Part shown: positions 20,893 through 31,319 of the stretch, piece by piece | How positions within the stretch are numbered: position 1 is the first letter of the stretch | Layout: each line of letters opens with the position of its first letter | NCBI GenBank assembly: GCA_027018875.1 | Contig: JALUYA010000050.1 | Coordinates: forward strand, 1-32,026 | From: Gammaproteobacteria bacterium | Lineage (GTDB): Bacteria > Pseudomonadota > Gammaproteobacteria > JAKDMP01 | Direction: 5' to 3' | Length of the DNA: 32,026 nucleotides | Program-made: the position numbers and the translations under genes | Notes under the pieces: generated by a model | The model's database searches: none | Seen by the model: the letters and a program-made list of their open reading frames with translations, nothing else | What the model was told of the DNA's origin: nothing

Positions 20893-22662
20893 TCAGGCAA
20901 TACCGGGCTTGAGACGGATCGACAGTTCGTCGAGCTGGCGCGGTTCGACCCGATCCGGGGCGCCGGTCAACAGATCCTGCGCGGTCTGGGTCTTGGGAAA
21001 GGCGATGACTTCACGGATATTGGGGGCGCCGGTCATGAGCATGACCAGCCGGTCCAGGCCAAAGGCCAGGCCGCCGTGGGGCGGGGCGCCATAGCGCAAG
21101 GCCTCGAGCAGAAAACCGAATTTTTGCTCGGCTTCCGCGGCGCCGATTCCGAGCAGGGAAAAGACGGCCTGCTGGATTTCGGTTTGGTGGATGCGGATCG
21201 ATCCCCCGCCGATCTCGTAGCCGTTGAGGACGATATCGTAGGCACGGGAGCGGGACGCTGCCGGATCCGCCAGCAGGGCTTCGGGATCATCCACGGCGGG
21301 TGCCGTGAATGGGTGGTGCAGTGCCTGCCAACGATGTTCGGATTCATCCCATTCAAACATCGGAAATCCGGTTACCCACAAGGGATTCCACCCTTTGCGC
21401 ACCAGATCCCGATCTTCGCCCAGCCTGGTTCGCAGCGCTGCGAGGGAATCGTTGACCACCCCGGCCGGACCGGCACCGAAGAACAGGATATCGCCGGTCT
21501 CGGCCCCGACGCGTGTAAGGATAGCCTCGAGAACGGGGGAATCGAGGAATTTGACGATCGGCGACTGTAGCCCGTCCCGTCCGCCGTCGCGCCGGATTAC
21601 CTTGATCCAGGCGAGCCCCCTGGCGCCAAAGCGGGAGAGGTATTTGGCGTAGCCGTCGATTACCCCGCGGCTGAGCTGTGCGCCCCCCGCAAGGCGCAAC
21701 GCCGCGACTCGTCCGGCGGGATCGGCGGCGGGGGCGGCAAAGACCTTGAACGAACTTTTGCGTACGAGGTCGGCGATTTCGACCAGCTCCAGTGGGTTGC
21801 GTAGATCCGGGTGGTCAGAACCGTAGCGGCTCATGGCTTCGTGATACTCCATCCGCGGGAAGGGTGGCAGTTCCACGTCGAGAACCCGGCGGAAGAGGTG
21901 GCGAATCATCTCCTCCATTAGCGCCATCACGCCGGTTTCATCCAGGAATGAGGTTTCGATATCGAGCTGGGTGAACTCGGGTTGGCGATCCGCGCGCAGA
22001 TCTTCGTCGCGAAAACAGCGCGCAAACTGGTAGTAGCGTTCGAATCCGCTCATCATCAACAACTGTTTGAATAATTGGGGTGACTGCGGCAAGGCGAAGA
22101 ATCGACCCGGGTGGGTACGGCTCGGCACCAGGTAATCGCGGGCGCCTTCGGGCGTTGCGCGTGTCAGACAGGGGGTTTCTATTTCGGTGAAATCCGCCGC
22201 GTCCAGAAAGTCGCGCAGGATGCGGACTATGGTATGGCGGCGGCGCAGGCGTTGTTGCATTACCGGGCGGCGCAGATCGAGATAGCGGTAGCGCAGGCGC
22301 AGGTTTTCCCCGATTTCGGTGTCATCCGGGGTAAAGGGAGGTGTTTGCGCCGCCGCCAGCACCCGAATATGCGCGGCAAGCACTTCGACTTCGCCGCTGG
22401 CGAGCGCGGGATTGACCGTTCCTTCGGGTCGGGCGCGAACACTACCCGTAACTTCGATGACCCATTCGTTGCGCAGGCGTTCTGCGGTGGCAAAGGCCGC
22501 AGCGACGGCGGGATCGAAGACCACCTGTACCAGCCCGCTGCAATCGCGGAGATCGACAAAAATTACCCCGCCATGGTCACGGCGACGGTGAACCCAACCC
22601 GTCACCGTGAGGGTTTTGCCGATCAATCTGGCCGTAACCTTGCCGCCGTGATGAGTGCGCAC
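20893..22662 (-). CDS. aspS: Aspartate--tRNA ligase, probably non-discriminating (Asp/Asn)
   Basis: The enzyme charges tRNA with aspartate. The 589-residue protein has the OB-fold anticodon domain, class II motif 2 ([14 protein letters not shown]), the bacterial GAD insertion and motif 3 (GLAFGLDRL). At the positions of E. coli Leu30 and Lys81 it has His30 and Gly81. This matches the His/Gly pair known from the Pseudomonas aeruginosa enzyme that also charges tRNA-Asn. The start is a GTG at 22662 with ACGGAGC ahead; MRTHH is the standard N-terminus. It is downstream of the DUF502 gene with a 91-base gap. The dual specificity is inferred. Confidence 0.97.
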
Positions 22663-22753: not shown

Positions 22754-23407
22754 TCAGATCCGAGGCCGATCCCCCTTTACAGCGGTTTGCGGGGTGGTCT
22801 GCTGCGGCCATTCAGGCACGACCACGCCGATCGAGATGATCATTTTGAGCGCCTCATCCACCGTCATCTCGAGCGCTACCACGTCTTCGTTGGGAACCAG
22901 CAGGATGAATCCCGAAGTCGGATTGGGGGTGGTCGGGACGAATACGGCGGTAACCTTGGCGCCGGTTTTGTCCTGGACCTCGCCGAGGTGGGTGGCGGTG
23001 ATAAAACCAAGCGAGTAACAGCCGCGGTAAGGATAGGGCACCAGTACCGCCTGGCGGAAACCCTGGCCATCACTTGCCAGCAGGGTCTGGGCGACCTGCT
23101 TGGCGCTGCCGTAGATGGCGCGAACGAACGGAATCCGGCCGATCAGGCGTTCCGCCCAGCCGACCAGGCTGCGCCCGATCAGGTTGCTGGTGATGATGCC
23201 GGTCAGGATGAGCAGCAAAATGGCGATCACCAGTCCCAGGCCGGGGATACCAAAGCCGAAGAGTTGATGTGGTTGGTATTGCGCCGGGAGTATGTTGAGC
23301 AGTTTATCGAACAAGTCGAAAAGAAACCGGACGACGAATACCGTGACGCCGATGGGAACCCAGATCAGCAGGCCGTAAATAAACCAGCGTTTAAGGTGTG
23401 ATGCCAT
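22754..23407 (-). CDS. DUF502 family membrane protein
   Basis: A 217-residue protein with two hydrophobic segments (about 8-30 and 53-78), a conserved middle region containing [16 protein letters not shown], and [17 protein letters not shown], which together are typical of DUF502 proteins. The function of the family is not established. It occupies the conserved place between fmdB and aspS seen in many beta- and gammaproteobacteria. An AGG precedes the ATG. Confidence 0.92.
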
Positions 23408-23452
23408 AGGTTGCCTGCGGAGACGGTGCCGGGCGGGAAAGTGACGGGAGGC

Positions 23453-23806
23453 TCAACCGCTCGCCGATTTCTTGCCAGCGTTGCCGTCATTCCGGGACTT
23501 CGTTGCCGTGGCAGCCTTGTCGGATCCGGCTACGGGCTTGGCGGGTGAAGTATCGGCGATTTTCCCTTTTTCCGCCTTATCCGCGCTTTTGCTTTGCGCA
23601 GGGTCGGCCAGATTATGCCGGTTCTTGGTTTTGAAATCGGTTTCGTACCAGCCGTTTCCCTTGAGCCGAAAAGCGACGGGTGAGATCAGTCGGGAAACGG
23701 CCGCCGCACCACACTCGGGGCAGGCTTCGGGGGTGGGAGCAGAGATTTTTTGCAGGAGTTCGAAGGAGTGCCCGCATTTTTCACAGCGGTATTCGTAGAT
23801 CGGCAT
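23453..23806 (-). CDS. FmdB-type zinc ribbon protein
   Basis: A 117-residue protein starting MPIYEYRC, with C8-x2-C11 and C29-x2-C32 forming a zinc ribbon of the FmdB/CxxC_CxxC_SSSS family. After about residue 60 it has a low-complexity tail rich in lysine, alanine and serine. The family is linked to regulation of formamidase in one organism, but its general role is unknown. The start at 23806 is set by the conserved MPIYEY opening; the frame extends 29 codons further upstream without support. It heads the fmdB-DUF502-aspS group. Confidence 0.92.
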   Translation of the reverse strand: MPIYEYRCEKCGHSFELLQKISAPTPEACPECGAAAVSRLISPVAFRLKGNGWYETDFKTKNRHNLADPAQSKSADKAEKGKIADTSPAKPVAGSDKAATATKSRNDGNAGKKSASG

Positions 23807-23860
23807 GGTTTTGTTCCGAACAGATGAACTGGGAACATATTGGGGGGTAGGGGCTTTTTT

Positions 23861-23916
23861 CTCAAGGGCGCCCGAGGCGCTGCGTTGCGTCATCCTTCGA
23901 GGCTCGCCCCCTTGAG
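23861..23916 (+). promoter_or_regulatory. Structured element in the metK leader
   Basis: CTCAAGGG (23861-23868) pairs with CCCTTGAG (23909-23916), and inside it CGAG (23873-23876) can pair with CTCG (23903-23906). The interior resembles a partial SAH riboswitch core (CGAGGCGCTGCG and CGAGGCTCG), but the conserved GGAGCG and downstream ACGGCGCT strand are missing. A second A/T hairpin (23960-23965 with 23970-23975) lies closer to metK. It could equally act on the other strand as part of the fmdB leader. Confidence 0.3.
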
Positions 23917-24030
23917 CCGTTTCGGTCCCTGGTGCAGGGCTACACCTGGGCCCGGGTTCGAAGAAAAAATTCTTCCGTACACTCTGATATTATTTCGAGT
24001 CTATCTTGATCTAAAAGGCTGGGTTCGGCC

Positions 24031-25212
24031 ATGACTACAAGCTACCTTTTCACCTCTGAATCGGTTTCCGAGGGGCATCCCGACAAGGTTGCCGACCAAA
24101 TTTCCGATGCCGTGCTCGATGCCATCCTCGGCGCGGATCCGCAAGCGCGCGTGGCCTGTGAAACGATGGTCAAGACCGGGGCCGCCATCGTTGCCGGCGA
24201 GATCACTACTTCGGCCTGGGTGGAATTGGAAGAGTTGGTGCGCAAGGTGATTTGCGAGATCGGTTATACCAGTTCCGAGGTCGGCTTCGACGGGGGAACC
24301 TGCGGGGTGATCAACATCATCGGCAAGCAGTCTTCGGACATTGCCCTGGGCGTGGATCGAGAAGTGGGGGAACATCAAGGCGCGGGCGACCAGGGCCTCA
24401 TGTTCGGCTATGCCTCGAACGAAACCGATGTACTGATGCCGGCCCCGATCACCTATGCCCACAAGCTGGTCAAGCGCCAGGCCGCCGTGCGCCGCTCGGG
24501 GACCCTGCCCTGGTTGCGTCCCGACGCGAAGAGCCAGGTGACCTTCCGCTATGTGGACGGCCGGCCGGCCGGCATCGAAACGGTGGTGCTATCGACCCAA
24601 CACGCCGAGGATGTTTCCAATCACGTGATCGAGGAGGGGGTGCGGGAAGAGATTATCAAGCCGATGCTGCCTGCCGAGTGGATGAGCCGGGATACGCGTA
24701 TCCTGATCAACCCCACCGGGCGTTTCGTCACCGGTGGGCCGGTCGGTGACTGCGGCCTGACCGGGCGCAAGATCATCGTTGATACCTATGGCGGAATGGC
24801 GCGTCACGGCGGCGGAGCCTTCTCCGGCAAGGACCCGTCCAAGGTGGATCGTTCCGGTGCCTATGCCGTGCGCTACGTGGCGAAAAATATCGTTGCCGCG
24901 GGGCTTGCCGAGCGCTGCGAGATTCAGCTCTCCTATGCCATCGGCATCGCCGAACCCACTTCCGTATCCGTCGAAACCTTTGGTACGGGGGTGATCCCGG
25001 ATAAACGCATCGAGGCGCTGGTGTGGGAGCACTTCGATCTACGCCCCTGGGGGATTATCCAGATGCTTGATCTGATTCGCCCGATCTACCGCAAAACGGC
25101 CGCCTATGGGCACTTCGGGCGAGAAGAACCGGAATTTACCTGGGAGCGTACCGACCGGGCCGCCGAACTGGCGGATGCGGCCGGGGTGAAACAGGCTGCT
25201 GCGGTGCGCTGA
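24031..25212 (+). CDS. metK: S-adenosylmethionine synthase
   Basis: MetK makes S-adenosylmethionine from methionine and ATP. The 393-residue protein begins [14 protein letters not shown], has the signature [12 protein letters not shown], the [16 protein letters not shown] phosphate loop and a C-terminus ending TWERTDR. Length is standard. AAGG lies about 12 bases ahead of the ATG, so the ribosome site is weak. The gene is followed by the SAH riboswitch and ahcY, so production of the methyl donor and removal of its by-product are neighbours. Confidence 0.98.
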
Positions 25213-25229
25213 CGGTCAATCGATTTCGG

Positions 25230-25301
25230 CTTGCAAGGAGCGTTGCAACGGGGCTTGCCCCGCCAGGCTTGCAGGTCGGCTTTTTCCCAACGGCGCTTAC
25301 C
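25230..25301 (+). promoter_or_regulatory. S-adenosylhomocysteine (SAH) riboswitch upstream of ahcY
   Basis: The metK-ahcY gap carries the conserved SAH riboswitch elements in order: AAGGAGCGTTGCAACG (25235-25250), CCAGGCTTG (25263-25271) and AACGGCGCTTACC (25289-25301). P1 pairs TGCAAG (25232-25237) with CTTGCA (25268-25273). The inner stem CGGGGC/GCCCCG forms P2's tip. The pseudoknot joins AGCG (25239-25242) to CGCT (25293-25296). Members of this class bind SAH and switch on SAH recycling genes. The ahcY ribosome site GAGGAG (25309-25314) lies directly downstream, which suggests control of translation. Confidence 0.9.
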
Positions 25302-25319
25302 CGACAAGAGGAGAACGTT

Positions 25320-26744
25320 ATGAACGCTATTGTTCAAAAATCATCGTTCACCGATTACGTGGTGAGCGATATGGACCTGGCCGAATGGGGACGCAAAGAG
25401 ATCCGCATCGCCGAGACAGAAATGCCCGGTTTGGTGGCGACCCGGGAAAAGTATAGCCAGGAAAAACCCCTCGATGGCGCGCGAATCGCGGGTTCGCTGC
25501 ACATGACGATCCAGACCGCGGTGCTGATCGAAACCCTGGTTGCCTTGGGCGCGCGGGTGCGATGGGCATCCTGTAATATCTTTTCGACCCAGGACCATGC
25601 CGCCGCCGCGATCGCGCAAGACCGGATTCCGGTATTTGCCAAAAAGGGTGAAACCGTAGCGGAATACTGGGCCTATACCCACCGGATTCTTGATTGGGGG
25701 GATGAGTGCGGACCGAACATGATCCTCGACGATGGGGGAGATGCCTCGCTCGCACTTACCCTCGGGGCGCGCGCCGAAGCCGATCCCGGGCTGATTGCCA
25801 ACCCCGAGAATGACGAGGAGGCCGCGCTGTTCGGCGAAATCAGGCAACATCTTGATGCGGATCCCCGGTGGTACTCCCGGCGCGTGGTTGATGTACGCGG
25901 CGTGACCGAGGAGACCACCACCGGGGTTCATCGGCTCTACCAGATGGCGCAAGAGGGAATTCTTCCGTTTCCGGCTATTAACGTGAACGATTCGGTGACC
26001 AAGTCCAAATTCGATAACCTCTATGGATGCCGCGAATCCTTGGTCGATGGCATCAAACGGGCCACCGACGTCATGGTCGCGGGCAAGATCGCCATCGTCT
26101 GCGGCCATGGGGATGTCGGCAAGGGCTGCGCCCAAAGTCTGTGCAGTCTGGGAGCCACCGTGTGGGTGACCGAGATCGATCCCATCTGTGCGCTGCAGGC
26201 GGCCATGGAGGGTTACCGTGTGGTCGGCCTCGATGATCCGGACGTAGTCGAGCAGGCGGATATCTTCGTCACCGCCACGGGCAATTATCACGTCCTTACC
26301 CATGAGCACATGCGGCGCATGAAGCATCAGGCGATCGTGTGTAACATTGGGCACTTTGACTCCGAAATCGACGTCGCCTCGTTGCGGGGTTACGAGTGGG
26401 AAAACATCAAGCCGCAGGTCGATCATGTGATTTTCCCCGACGGAAAGCGCATCATCTTGCTCGCCGAGGGCCGGCTGGTCAACCTCGGTTGCGCCACCGG
26501 GCACCCGAGTTTCGTGATGTCCAACAGCTTCACCAACCAGGTGCTTGCCCAGATCGAACTCTTTACCCACCCCGGAGAGTATGACAAGCAGGTCTATGTA
26601 TTGCCCAAGCGCCTGGACGAGGAAGTCGCGCGGTTGCACCTCGACAAACTGGGTGCACGCCTTACGCAACTGACCGCCCGCCAGGCCGCCTACATCGATG
26701 TGCCGGTCGAGGGCCCTTACAAGCCGGATCATTACCGCTATTGA
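25320..26744 (+). CDS. ahcY: Adenosylhomocysteinase
   Basis: AhcY splits S-adenosylhomocysteine into adenosine and homocysteine using bound NAD. The 474-residue protein has [17 protein letters not shown] near the substrate site, the NAD loop [13 protein letters not shown], the signature [11 protein letters not shown] and the C-terminal KPDHYRY. It is the long bacterial form with the roughly 40-residue insertion. The ATG at 25320 has GAGGAG at the right distance. Expression is probably raised by SAH through the riboswitch just ahead. Confidence 0.98.
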
Positions 26745-26748
26745 CCCC

Positions 26749-26793
26749 CGCCGCCCGCGTCCGCCCTTTCGCGGTGGCGGACGCCGGGCGGCG
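26749..26793 (+). terminator. Long GC hairpin between ahcY and alaS
   Basis: A 17-base arm (26749-26765) pairs with 26776-26793 with a single bulged C, around a 10-base loop. It starts five bases after the ahcY stop. No T run follows, so it may stall or protect the transcript rather than end it alone. Confidence 0.45.
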
Positions 26794-26843
26794 ACCGGAA
26801 AACTGGGCGATAATAAGCCGTTCACAGGCAGTATCGGCAAGAT

Positions 26844-29471
26844 ATGACAACCAACGAGATTCGCCAGGCTTTTCTAGATTTCTTCTCCGCCCGGGGCCAT
26901 ACGGTGGTGCCCTCGAGCCCGCTGGTGCCCGCCAATGATCCGACCCTGCTGTTCACCAATGCGGGGATGGTGCAATTCAAGGATGTTTTCCTCGGGCGCG
27001 AGCAGCGTGGCTACACCCGGGCCACATCTTCGCAGCGGTGCGTGCGCGCTGGCGGCAAGCACAATGACCTGGAAAACGTGGGCTATACCGCGCGGCATCA
27101 TACCTTCTTCGAGATGCTGGGCAATTTCAGTTTCGGCGATTATTTCAAGCGCGATGCGATTTTCTATGCCTGGACCCTGTTGACCGAGGTTTTTCATCTC
27201 CCTGCAGAAAGGCTTTGGGCCACGGTATACGCGACCGATGACGCAGCCTATGACGTGTTTGCGAACGGGCTCGGGGTTCCCGCGGCGCGTATCGTGCGCC
27301 TCGGTGACAAGCCCGGCGGGCGGAAATTCGAAAGCGATAACTTCTGGCAGATGGCCGATACCGGGCCCTGTGGACCCTGTGCCGAGATTTTCTATGATCA
27401 CGGACCCGCAATTACGGGGGGACCGCCCGGCTCACCTACGGCCGATGGGGATCGCTACGTCGAGATCTGGAACCTGGTCTTCATGCAGTATGACCGGGCG
27501 GCCGATGGTACGATGACGCCGCTGCCCGCGCCCTGCGTGGATACCGGGATGGGGCTCGAGCGGATCGCCGCGGTACTTCAGGGGGTACATTCAAATTACG
27601 CGATCGACCTGTTTCGCGTCCTGATCGGCGAGGCGGCCGAGGTGACCGGCGTGCGGGATTTGAACTCCAGTTCACTCAAGGTGATCGCGGATCATATCCG
27701 TGCGAGTGCTTTTTTGATCGCCGACGGCGTCGTGCCCGCGAACGAAGGCCGGGGCTATGTGTTGCGCCGGATCATTCGCCGCGCGATCCGCCATGGCTAC
27801 AAGCTGGGTCGGACCGAGCCTTTCTTTTATCGGCTGGTTGAGCCGCTGGTTCGGGAGATGGGGGTGGCCTATCCATTGTTGGCTGAGTCCCGCTCCCGGA
27901 TCGAGGACGCGCTGCGCGAGGAAGAGAATCGCTTTGCGGCGACGTTGCACCGGGGGATGCACCTGCTCGAGGACACGCTCGATTCCCTGCCGGGAAAGAT
28001 ACTCCCGGGTACGGTGGCCTTCAAGCTGTACGACACTTACGGCTTTCCGGTGGATCTTAGCGCCGATGTCGCCCGCGAGCGGGGATTCACGGTGGATCTT
28101 GACGGGTTCGAGCGCGAGATGCAGCGCCAGCGCGAGCGGGCGCGGGCGGCTAGCCGGTTTGACGCCGATTACAGCCGCGGCGGACAGATCGAGGCCCGCT
28201 CGGAGTTTTCGGGCTATGAGCGGACCCAGGATCGGGCACGGATTGTCGCACTGTATTGCCAATCTGCGCCAGTGCTTAGGTTGGAACCGGGAATGGAAGG
28301 GCTGGTGGTATTGGATAACACCCCGTTCTACGCCGAATCCGGTGGCCAGGTGGGTGATACCGGTGTGATCGAGGCGGACGGTGGCTGCTTCCAGGTCCGC
28401 GATACCCAGAAACGAATGCCGGCGCATGTGCACTTTGGAACGTTGGAACGGGGCCACCTGGAAGTCGGCGACAGCGTTACTGCCCGGGTAGATGCCGAGC
28501 GGCGGGGGGAGATCATGCGGAACCATTCCGCGACTCACCTGTTGCATGCGGCGCTGCGCGAGATTTTGGGCACACATGTTGTTCAGAAAGGCTCGCTGGT
28601 CGCACCAAGTCGCCTGCGATTCGACTTTTCCCATCCCAGACCGATCGGTGCGGAAACCCTCGCACGGGTCGAGGATCGGGTAAATGAATGGATACGTGCC
28701 AACCTGGAGGGCGAGACCCGCCGGCTGCCCTATGCCGAGGCGCTCGCCTCGGGGGCACTGGCCCTGTTCGGCGAAAAATACGGGGATGTGGTTCGCGTTC
28801 TGCGCTTCGGCTCGGTTTCGGTGGAGCTGTGTGGCGGCACTCACGTGAAGCGCACCGGCGATATCGGCCTGTTCAAGGTCGTCTTCGAATCGGGTGTGGC
28901 CGCCGGGGTGCGGCGAATCGAGGCGGTAACCGGGCGTGGCGCGATCGCCTTCATGCATCGGCAAGAGCAGTGGCTGAGCGAGATTGCCGCAAATCTCAAG
29001 TCCAGTCGCGAGGATGCCGCGGCGAGGGTTCGCCAGTTGGCGGAGCGGGCACGGGAGTTGGAGAAGGAGCTGGGGCGGTTGCGCGAGCGCCTCGCTGGCG
29101 GCCGGGGTGCCGATCTGGCTTCTCGGGCCAAGGAGATAGATGGGCACCGGGTGCTGGCGGCGCGTTTCGATGGCGCCGACGCCAAGGGGCTGCGAGCGGC
29201 GGTGGACCGGCTGAAGGGGACACTGGGATCCGCGGCCATCGTGCTTGCCGCGGTCGAGGGCGGCAAGGTGCGGCTTGCCGCCGGGGTCACGCCTGACCTG
29301 GCGGCAAAAATACCCGCCGGTGAGCTGGTCAATACCGTCGCCGGTCAGGTTGGCGGGCAGGGTGGCGGCCGCGCCGATTTCGCCCAAGCGGGCGGAACCC
29401 GGCCGCAGGAGTTGGATGCGGCGCTTGCCAGGGTACCCGGGTGGGTACGGCAACGCCTTTCCGGCGGCTGA
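26844..29471 (+). CDS. alaS: Alanine--tRNA ligase
   Basis: AlaRS charges tRNA-Ala and edits mischarged serine and glycine. The 875-residue protein has the class II core ([29 protein letters not shown]), the editing-domain zinc site NHSATHLLH (HxxxH) with CGGTH, and the C-terminal glycine-rich C-Ala segment [10 protein letters not shown]. Length matches E. coli AlaRS (876). No strong ribosome site is visible. It leads the alaS-lysC-csrA order common in gammaproteobacteria. Confidence 0.98.
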
Positions 29472-31228: not shown

Positions 31229-31319
31229 GGAGAGATGGCCGAGTGGTCGAAGGCGCTCCCCTGCTAAGGGAGTAAGGGTCACAAGCCCTTCGAGGGTTCG
31301 AATCCCTCTCTCTCCGCCA
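31229..31319 (+). tRNA. tRNA-Ser(GCT)
   Basis: A complete 91-base class II tRNA. The acceptor arm GGAGAGA (31229-31235) pairs with TCTCTCC (31309-31315), followed by G and an encoded CCA. The anticodon loop CTGCTAA has GCT at 31263-31265, reading AGC/AGU serine codons. The long variable arm typical of serine tRNAs and the T arm GAGGG-TTCGAAT-CCCTC are present. A serine tRNA after csrA is common in gammaproteobacteria. Confidence 0.98.

Follow-up and report, generated by a model that had tools for sequence, protein, structure and literature searches.

A predicted SAH riboswitch for ahcY in the metK-ahcY gap of a gammaproteobacterial genome, with a possible alternative hairpin extending into the ahcY reading frame

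We consider the short gap between metK and ahcY in a contig of Gammaproteobacteria bacterium (JALUYA010000050.1; the whole stretch of 32,026 nucleotides is called the window here). The question that this locus raises is "does the gap hold an SAH riboswitch, and if so, how would it control ahcY?" An earlier note, made from the letters alone, had placed such a riboswitch at 25230-25301. With cmscan and Rfam 15, the SAH riboswitch model RF01057 matches 25229-25305 on the forward strand over its full length (model positions 1-78 of 78) with 60.9 bits, where the gathering score is 37 bits (E 4.7e-9 for the whole window searched with all 4227 families). The interval of the earlier note is thus the same element, cut one nucleotide short at the 5' end and four at the 3' end. 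The only other family above its gathering score in the window is a tRNA (31229-31316), and RF01057 has this one match in the genome (54 contigs, 2.2 Mb).

The pairs of the aptamer can be read directly from the DNA. P1 has eight standard pairs, two of them G-U, and the pseudoknot has seven, three of them G-U, so that both helices pair as the earlier note had said. The joining region J1/2 reads GGAGCGUUGC, an AGGC follows at 25265-25268, and the conserved letters of the joining regions are intact in the covariance-model alignment. Covariation in relatives supports P1; the pseudoknot is nearly invariant. Among the 148 elements readable by a simple parser (two were dropped from the best 150 of 163 matches), the third P1 pair is CG in 95, UA in 42 and UG in 10, and further P1 pairs vary likewise while staying paired; the five core pseudoknot pairs, standard in 141-147 of the 148, hardly vary. 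Judged from its sequence, the element is clearly a true and ordinary member of the RF01057 class in the usual place; the class is known and the member is new. The same evidence supports its assignment as an SAH riboswitch for ahcY, with ligand and regulation predicted. The features are collected in Table 1.

Table 1. Coordinates of the features in the window and of the SAH elements found before metK in relatives
Feature	Position	Strand	Basis and remarks
metK, methionine adenosyltransferase (SAM synthetase); upstream gene	24031-25212	+	TIGR01034, 599 bits (cut-off 309)
SAH riboswitch aptamer (RF01057)	25229-25305	+	full-length model match, 60.9 bits
P1 5' strand	25229-25236	+	pairs with 25269-25276; sequence; P1 columns covary in 148 elements
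P1 3' strand	25269-25276	+	sequence, model alignment, P1 covariation in 148 elements
P2 hairpin	25249-25262	+	five pairs, 25249-25253/25258-25262, CUUG loop; alignment and sequence
Pseudoknot 5' strand, GAGCGUU	25238-25244	+	pairs with 25292-25298
Pseudoknot 3' strand, GGCGCUU	25292-25298	+	25294-25298 also in 5' arm of alternative hairpin
5' arm of proposed alternative (SAH-free) hairpin, CGCUUACC	25294-25301	+	duplex with 25361-25368
Shine-Dalgarno AGGAG of ahcY	25309-25313	+	sequence; begins 4 nt after aptamer end
ahcY, adenosylhomocysteinase (SAH hydrolase); target gene	25320-26744	+	TIGR00936, 590.8 bits (cut-off 497.6)
Proposed anti-Shine-Dalgarno arm, CGUUCACC, ahcY codons 9-11	25345-25352	+	pairs with 25310-25317 in MFE
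Proposed anti-pseudoknot arm, GGUGAGCG, ahcY codons 14-17	25361-25368	+	ensemble helix probability
SAH element before metK	L053:160-242	+	cmscan, TIGR01034
SAH element before metK	L083:3003-3081	+	cmscan, TIGR01034
SAH element before metK	L067:3003-3075	+	cmscan, TIGR01034
SAH element before metK	L107:3009-3080	-	cmscan, TIGR01034
SAH element before metK	L102:3003-3077	-	cmscan, TIGR01034

The gene order is equally legible, both flanking genes being confirmed by NCBIfam equivalog models. The ahcY product has strong matches to solved SAH hydrolases, and ahcY is followed by alaS and then by an aspartate kinase gene. The metK stop lies 16 nt before the aptamer, and 14 nt separate the aptamer end from ahcY, whose start codon comes 15 nt after that end. 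Consensus scans, which are weak evidence, detect no sigma-70-like promoter in 23400-27000, where shuffles would yield 1.2, nor anything terminator-like between the aptamer and ahcY. Because of the 16-nt spacing and the promoter scan, the switch most likely lies between the cistrons of one metK-ahcY message, and the shortness of that spacing makes an intercistronic translational ON switch the most likely form.

That metK stays outside the switch, as the earlier note had it, agrees with the single match in the genome and with the absence of an RF01057 hit before metK, even when E values up to 5 are admitted. A stretch at 23860-23930 that by eye slightly resembles a degenerate second SAH element falls under the same result, is single-copy, and was rejected. 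The surrounding region (23840-24030) is GC-rich with inverted repeats and occurs once in the genome, and no Rfam family reaches its gathering score there. Further upstream, a DUF502 protein (22754-23407) adjoins a Zn_ribbon_8 zinc-ribbon protein (23453-23893) and aspS (20893-22662), all on the reverse strand. The metF gene of this genome is on another contig, outside the metK-ahcY operon; with a single RF01057 match in the genome, its membership in an SAH regulon here was rejected.

Is this position unusual for the class? In a class-wide sample, 154 of 369 genomes have an SAH element, with 163 matches in all (nine genomes have two), of which the best 150 were examined and the 13 weakest left out; the counts are of sampled species and not of independent events. 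Among these best 150 of 163, metK is upstream and ahcY downstream in 114; ahcY is downstream with no metK seen upstream in 27 (in three of them the sequence before the element is shorter than 1300 nt); metK and then ahcY both follow the element in five; ahcY is absent in three; and one contig ends after metK. Between the metK match and the aptamer the median distance is 56 nt (104 loci, one orientation); the largest reach 1556 nt, and a few of the 114 elements are therefore not immediate neighbours of metK. The metK gap, which the earlier note had singled out as the point of interest, is therefore the commonest position of the class and nothing special. The family and order of this genome are represented in the collection by two genomes with one element each. 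In the second, the sister genome G001, no metK is found in any frame of the 156 nt before the element, and the only metK match (residues 1-49) is on another contig. Three loci (L054, L086, L099), from genomes with two elements, have metF downstream of the element, with no ahcY within the stretch examined.

A 2014 survey covering some 200 proteobacterial genomes (PMC4239095) names ahcY and metF as the core of the SAH-riboswitch regulon and states that metK is not controlled by this class. The window element is the same as the RF01057 riboswitch of this gamma- and beta-proteobacterial regulon in its full-model match, its pairs and its target ahcY, and it agrees that metK is not under the switch; it differs in that metF is not in the operon and alaS follows ahcY. 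Another difference from the known class is that the predicted alternative pairing in the window extends into the ahcY reading frame. In five loci of relatives from three families, an SAH element lies directly upstream of metK, which is followed by ahcY (Table 1), and these loci run contrary to the survey. Two of them (L053, L083; genomes G075, G304) have a second SAH element between metK and ahcY; in both, the start codon of metK is a possible pairing partner for the pseudoknot strand of the first element. Two other motifs are comparable, and neither has a cmscan match above its gathering score in the window. RF01727, the SAM/SAH riboswitch that precedes metK in Rhodobacterales (PMC2864571, PMC4239095), shares the ligand family and SAM-cycle genes with the window element, but is a different family. 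The SAM-Chlorobi motif RF01724 is likewise associated with metK and ahcY, but it precedes the operon in Chlorobi, unlike the window element, and bound neither SAM nor SAH in preliminary probing (PMC2864571).

We turn to the mechanism, for which we consider it highly probable that an SAH-sensing riboswitch inside the metK-ahcY message turns ahcY translation ON as SAH accumulates. In the 2008 description of the class, SAH binding reportedly raises expression of the downstream gene. The sole element of this genome sits at the gene whose enzyme clears SAH, which speaks for the proposed switch. The ligand would bind at the P1/P2 junction and stabilise the pseudoknot (25238-25244/25292-25298), whose 3' strand would then no longer be free for an alternative hairpin with ahcY codons 9-17. 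Without SAH, this hairpin would also pair the Shine-Dalgarno stretch; once that stretch is freed, the ribosome could load and SAH hydrolase would be made. The sequence itself establishes the aptamer, its pairs and the order of the genes, and statistics establish that the alternative pairing exists; from these we infer the ligand, the ON direction, control at translation and what the reading-frame arm does. The opening of the Shine-Dalgarno upon pseudoknot formation is likewise a proposed step, since the accessibility calculations given below return no such opening.

The alternative hairpin is built from two predicted helices. The duplex of 25294-25301 with 25361-25368 is equalled by 0.5% and 0.3% of dinucleotide shuffles of the downstream stretch in two runs, and its ensemble probability is about 0.95 in the window and about 0.58 in the sister genome, where the same hairpin has C-G in place of the U-G of the window. 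The pairing of 25345-25352 with 25310-25317 is in the MFE of the stretch from pseudoknot to reading frame in both genomes. From the pseudoknot strand to codon 22, the window folds at -26.9 kcal/mol, a value reached by 23 of 500 dinucleotide shuffles (mean -21.4 kcal/mol, sd 3.1) and by 62 of 3000 synonymous recodings (-21.0 kcal/mol, sd 2.8); the equivalent stretch of the sister genome is matched by 18 of 500 and 119 of 3000. In one other family, two loci that are alike in this stretch (L010, L031) follow the same plan with the arm at position +34 of the reading frame. Codons 9-16 are nucleotide-identical between the window and the sister genome, one of five runs of at least eight in ahcY; this identity is not exceptional within the gene and was rejected as proof of constraint.

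Does such pairing exist in the class at large? The pseudoknot 3' strand and the bases following it were compared with dinucleotide shuffles of the 60-nt downstream stretch. A downstream partner at p<=0.05 is found in 57 of 148 elements (58 when first run). Exchanging the partners among genomes lowers this to 18 of 147 (Fisher p 2e-7), and an 11-mer taken from the linker reaches 6 of 148. Statistically, then, the class does show alternative pairing by the pseudoknot strand. Three or more core bases take part in it in 55 elements. In 38 of these the pairing involves or encloses the Shine-Dalgarno or start codon, or lies in the early reading frame (in L116 the alternative stem contains the start codon); in the remaining 17 the partner lies before the Shine-Dalgarno, four of them with a U-tract. 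Accessibility was calculated from nearest-neighbour energies with the pseudoknot strand occupied. In the window, that of the Shine-Dalgarno does not rise (0.57 to 0.51) and that of the start codon hardly moves (0.40 to 0.42). Over 125 elements the Shine-Dalgarno again shows no rise (p=0.88) and the start codon a small one (0.357 to 0.396, p=0.0035); an earlier version with a shorter tail had no effect (p=0.25, 132 elements). With this negative or weak outcome, accessibility modelling was rejected as proof of an ON switch.

Two departures from the proposed mechanism seem very improbable to us. One is that the aptamer has decayed or changed its ligand and gives no SAH response, its pseudoknot being weakened by the three G-U pairs. 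The outer pseudoknot pair, G-C in 145 of 148 relatives, is indeed G-U in the window, and the duplex is weaker than the consensus (-8.5 versus -12.9 kcal/mol); against this, the joining-region letters are intact and the score of the element exceeds that of most members of the class sample among the matches listed. The other, transcriptional control of ahcY by a terminator, we rate just as low. It can point to four relatives in which an alternative helix before the Shine-Dalgarno is followed by a U-rich tract, and in two of these (L049, L082) the pseudoknot strand lies in the hairpin before the U-tract, which on the predicted folds makes them likely transcriptional versions of the switch. The window, however, has only the 14 nt noted above between aptamer and start, and the scan places no terminator-like site there.

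A closer contest concerns where the platform ends. It may be, though we put this at somewhat below even, an ordinary short translational platform confined to the leader, for example with the U-rich linker (about 25281-25287) pairing with the Shine-Dalgarno, and the pairing of codons 9-17 would then be a by-product of the protein sequence. Folds of 25213-25360, which ends before codon 14, and of 25223-25385 both pair the linker with the Shine-Dalgarno stretch, and in the MFE of the latter codons 9-16 fold on themselves; in these models the winning fold depends on the stretch taken. Moreover, the protein motif Asp-Tyr-x-Val-Ala-Asp is common at this site. A leader-only platform has against it the rarity of synonymous recodings as stable as the natural stretch, the similar pairing within the reading frame in the second lineage, and the hairpin shared with the sister genome. 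A platform lying partly within the ahcY frame is a reading we offer tentatively, as possible rather than probable: codons 14-17 would compete for the pseudoknot strand, codons 9-11 would cover the Shine-Dalgarno, the switch would have shaped the N-terminus of the protein, and at least one other lineage would have come to the same solution. Its Asp-Tyr-Val-Val-Ser-Asp is found in three of the 114 elements with a readable motif, two being the window and the sister genome, whereas the usual Asp-Tyr-Lys-Val-Ala-Asp is the commonest (57 of 114). As a refinement of the known class, the hairpin embedded in the reading frame is plausible but unproven.

SAH, which the ahcY enzyme clears, is a toxic by-product of methylation. 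The present element confirms the class in a little-sampled order, and the census makes metK, SAH element, ahcY the usual order, with the switch between the cistrons of a probable single message. Relatives with the class in front of metK are relevant to the coupling between SAM supply and SAH removal. If the arm within the reading frame is real, coding sequence and riboswitch would constrain each other.
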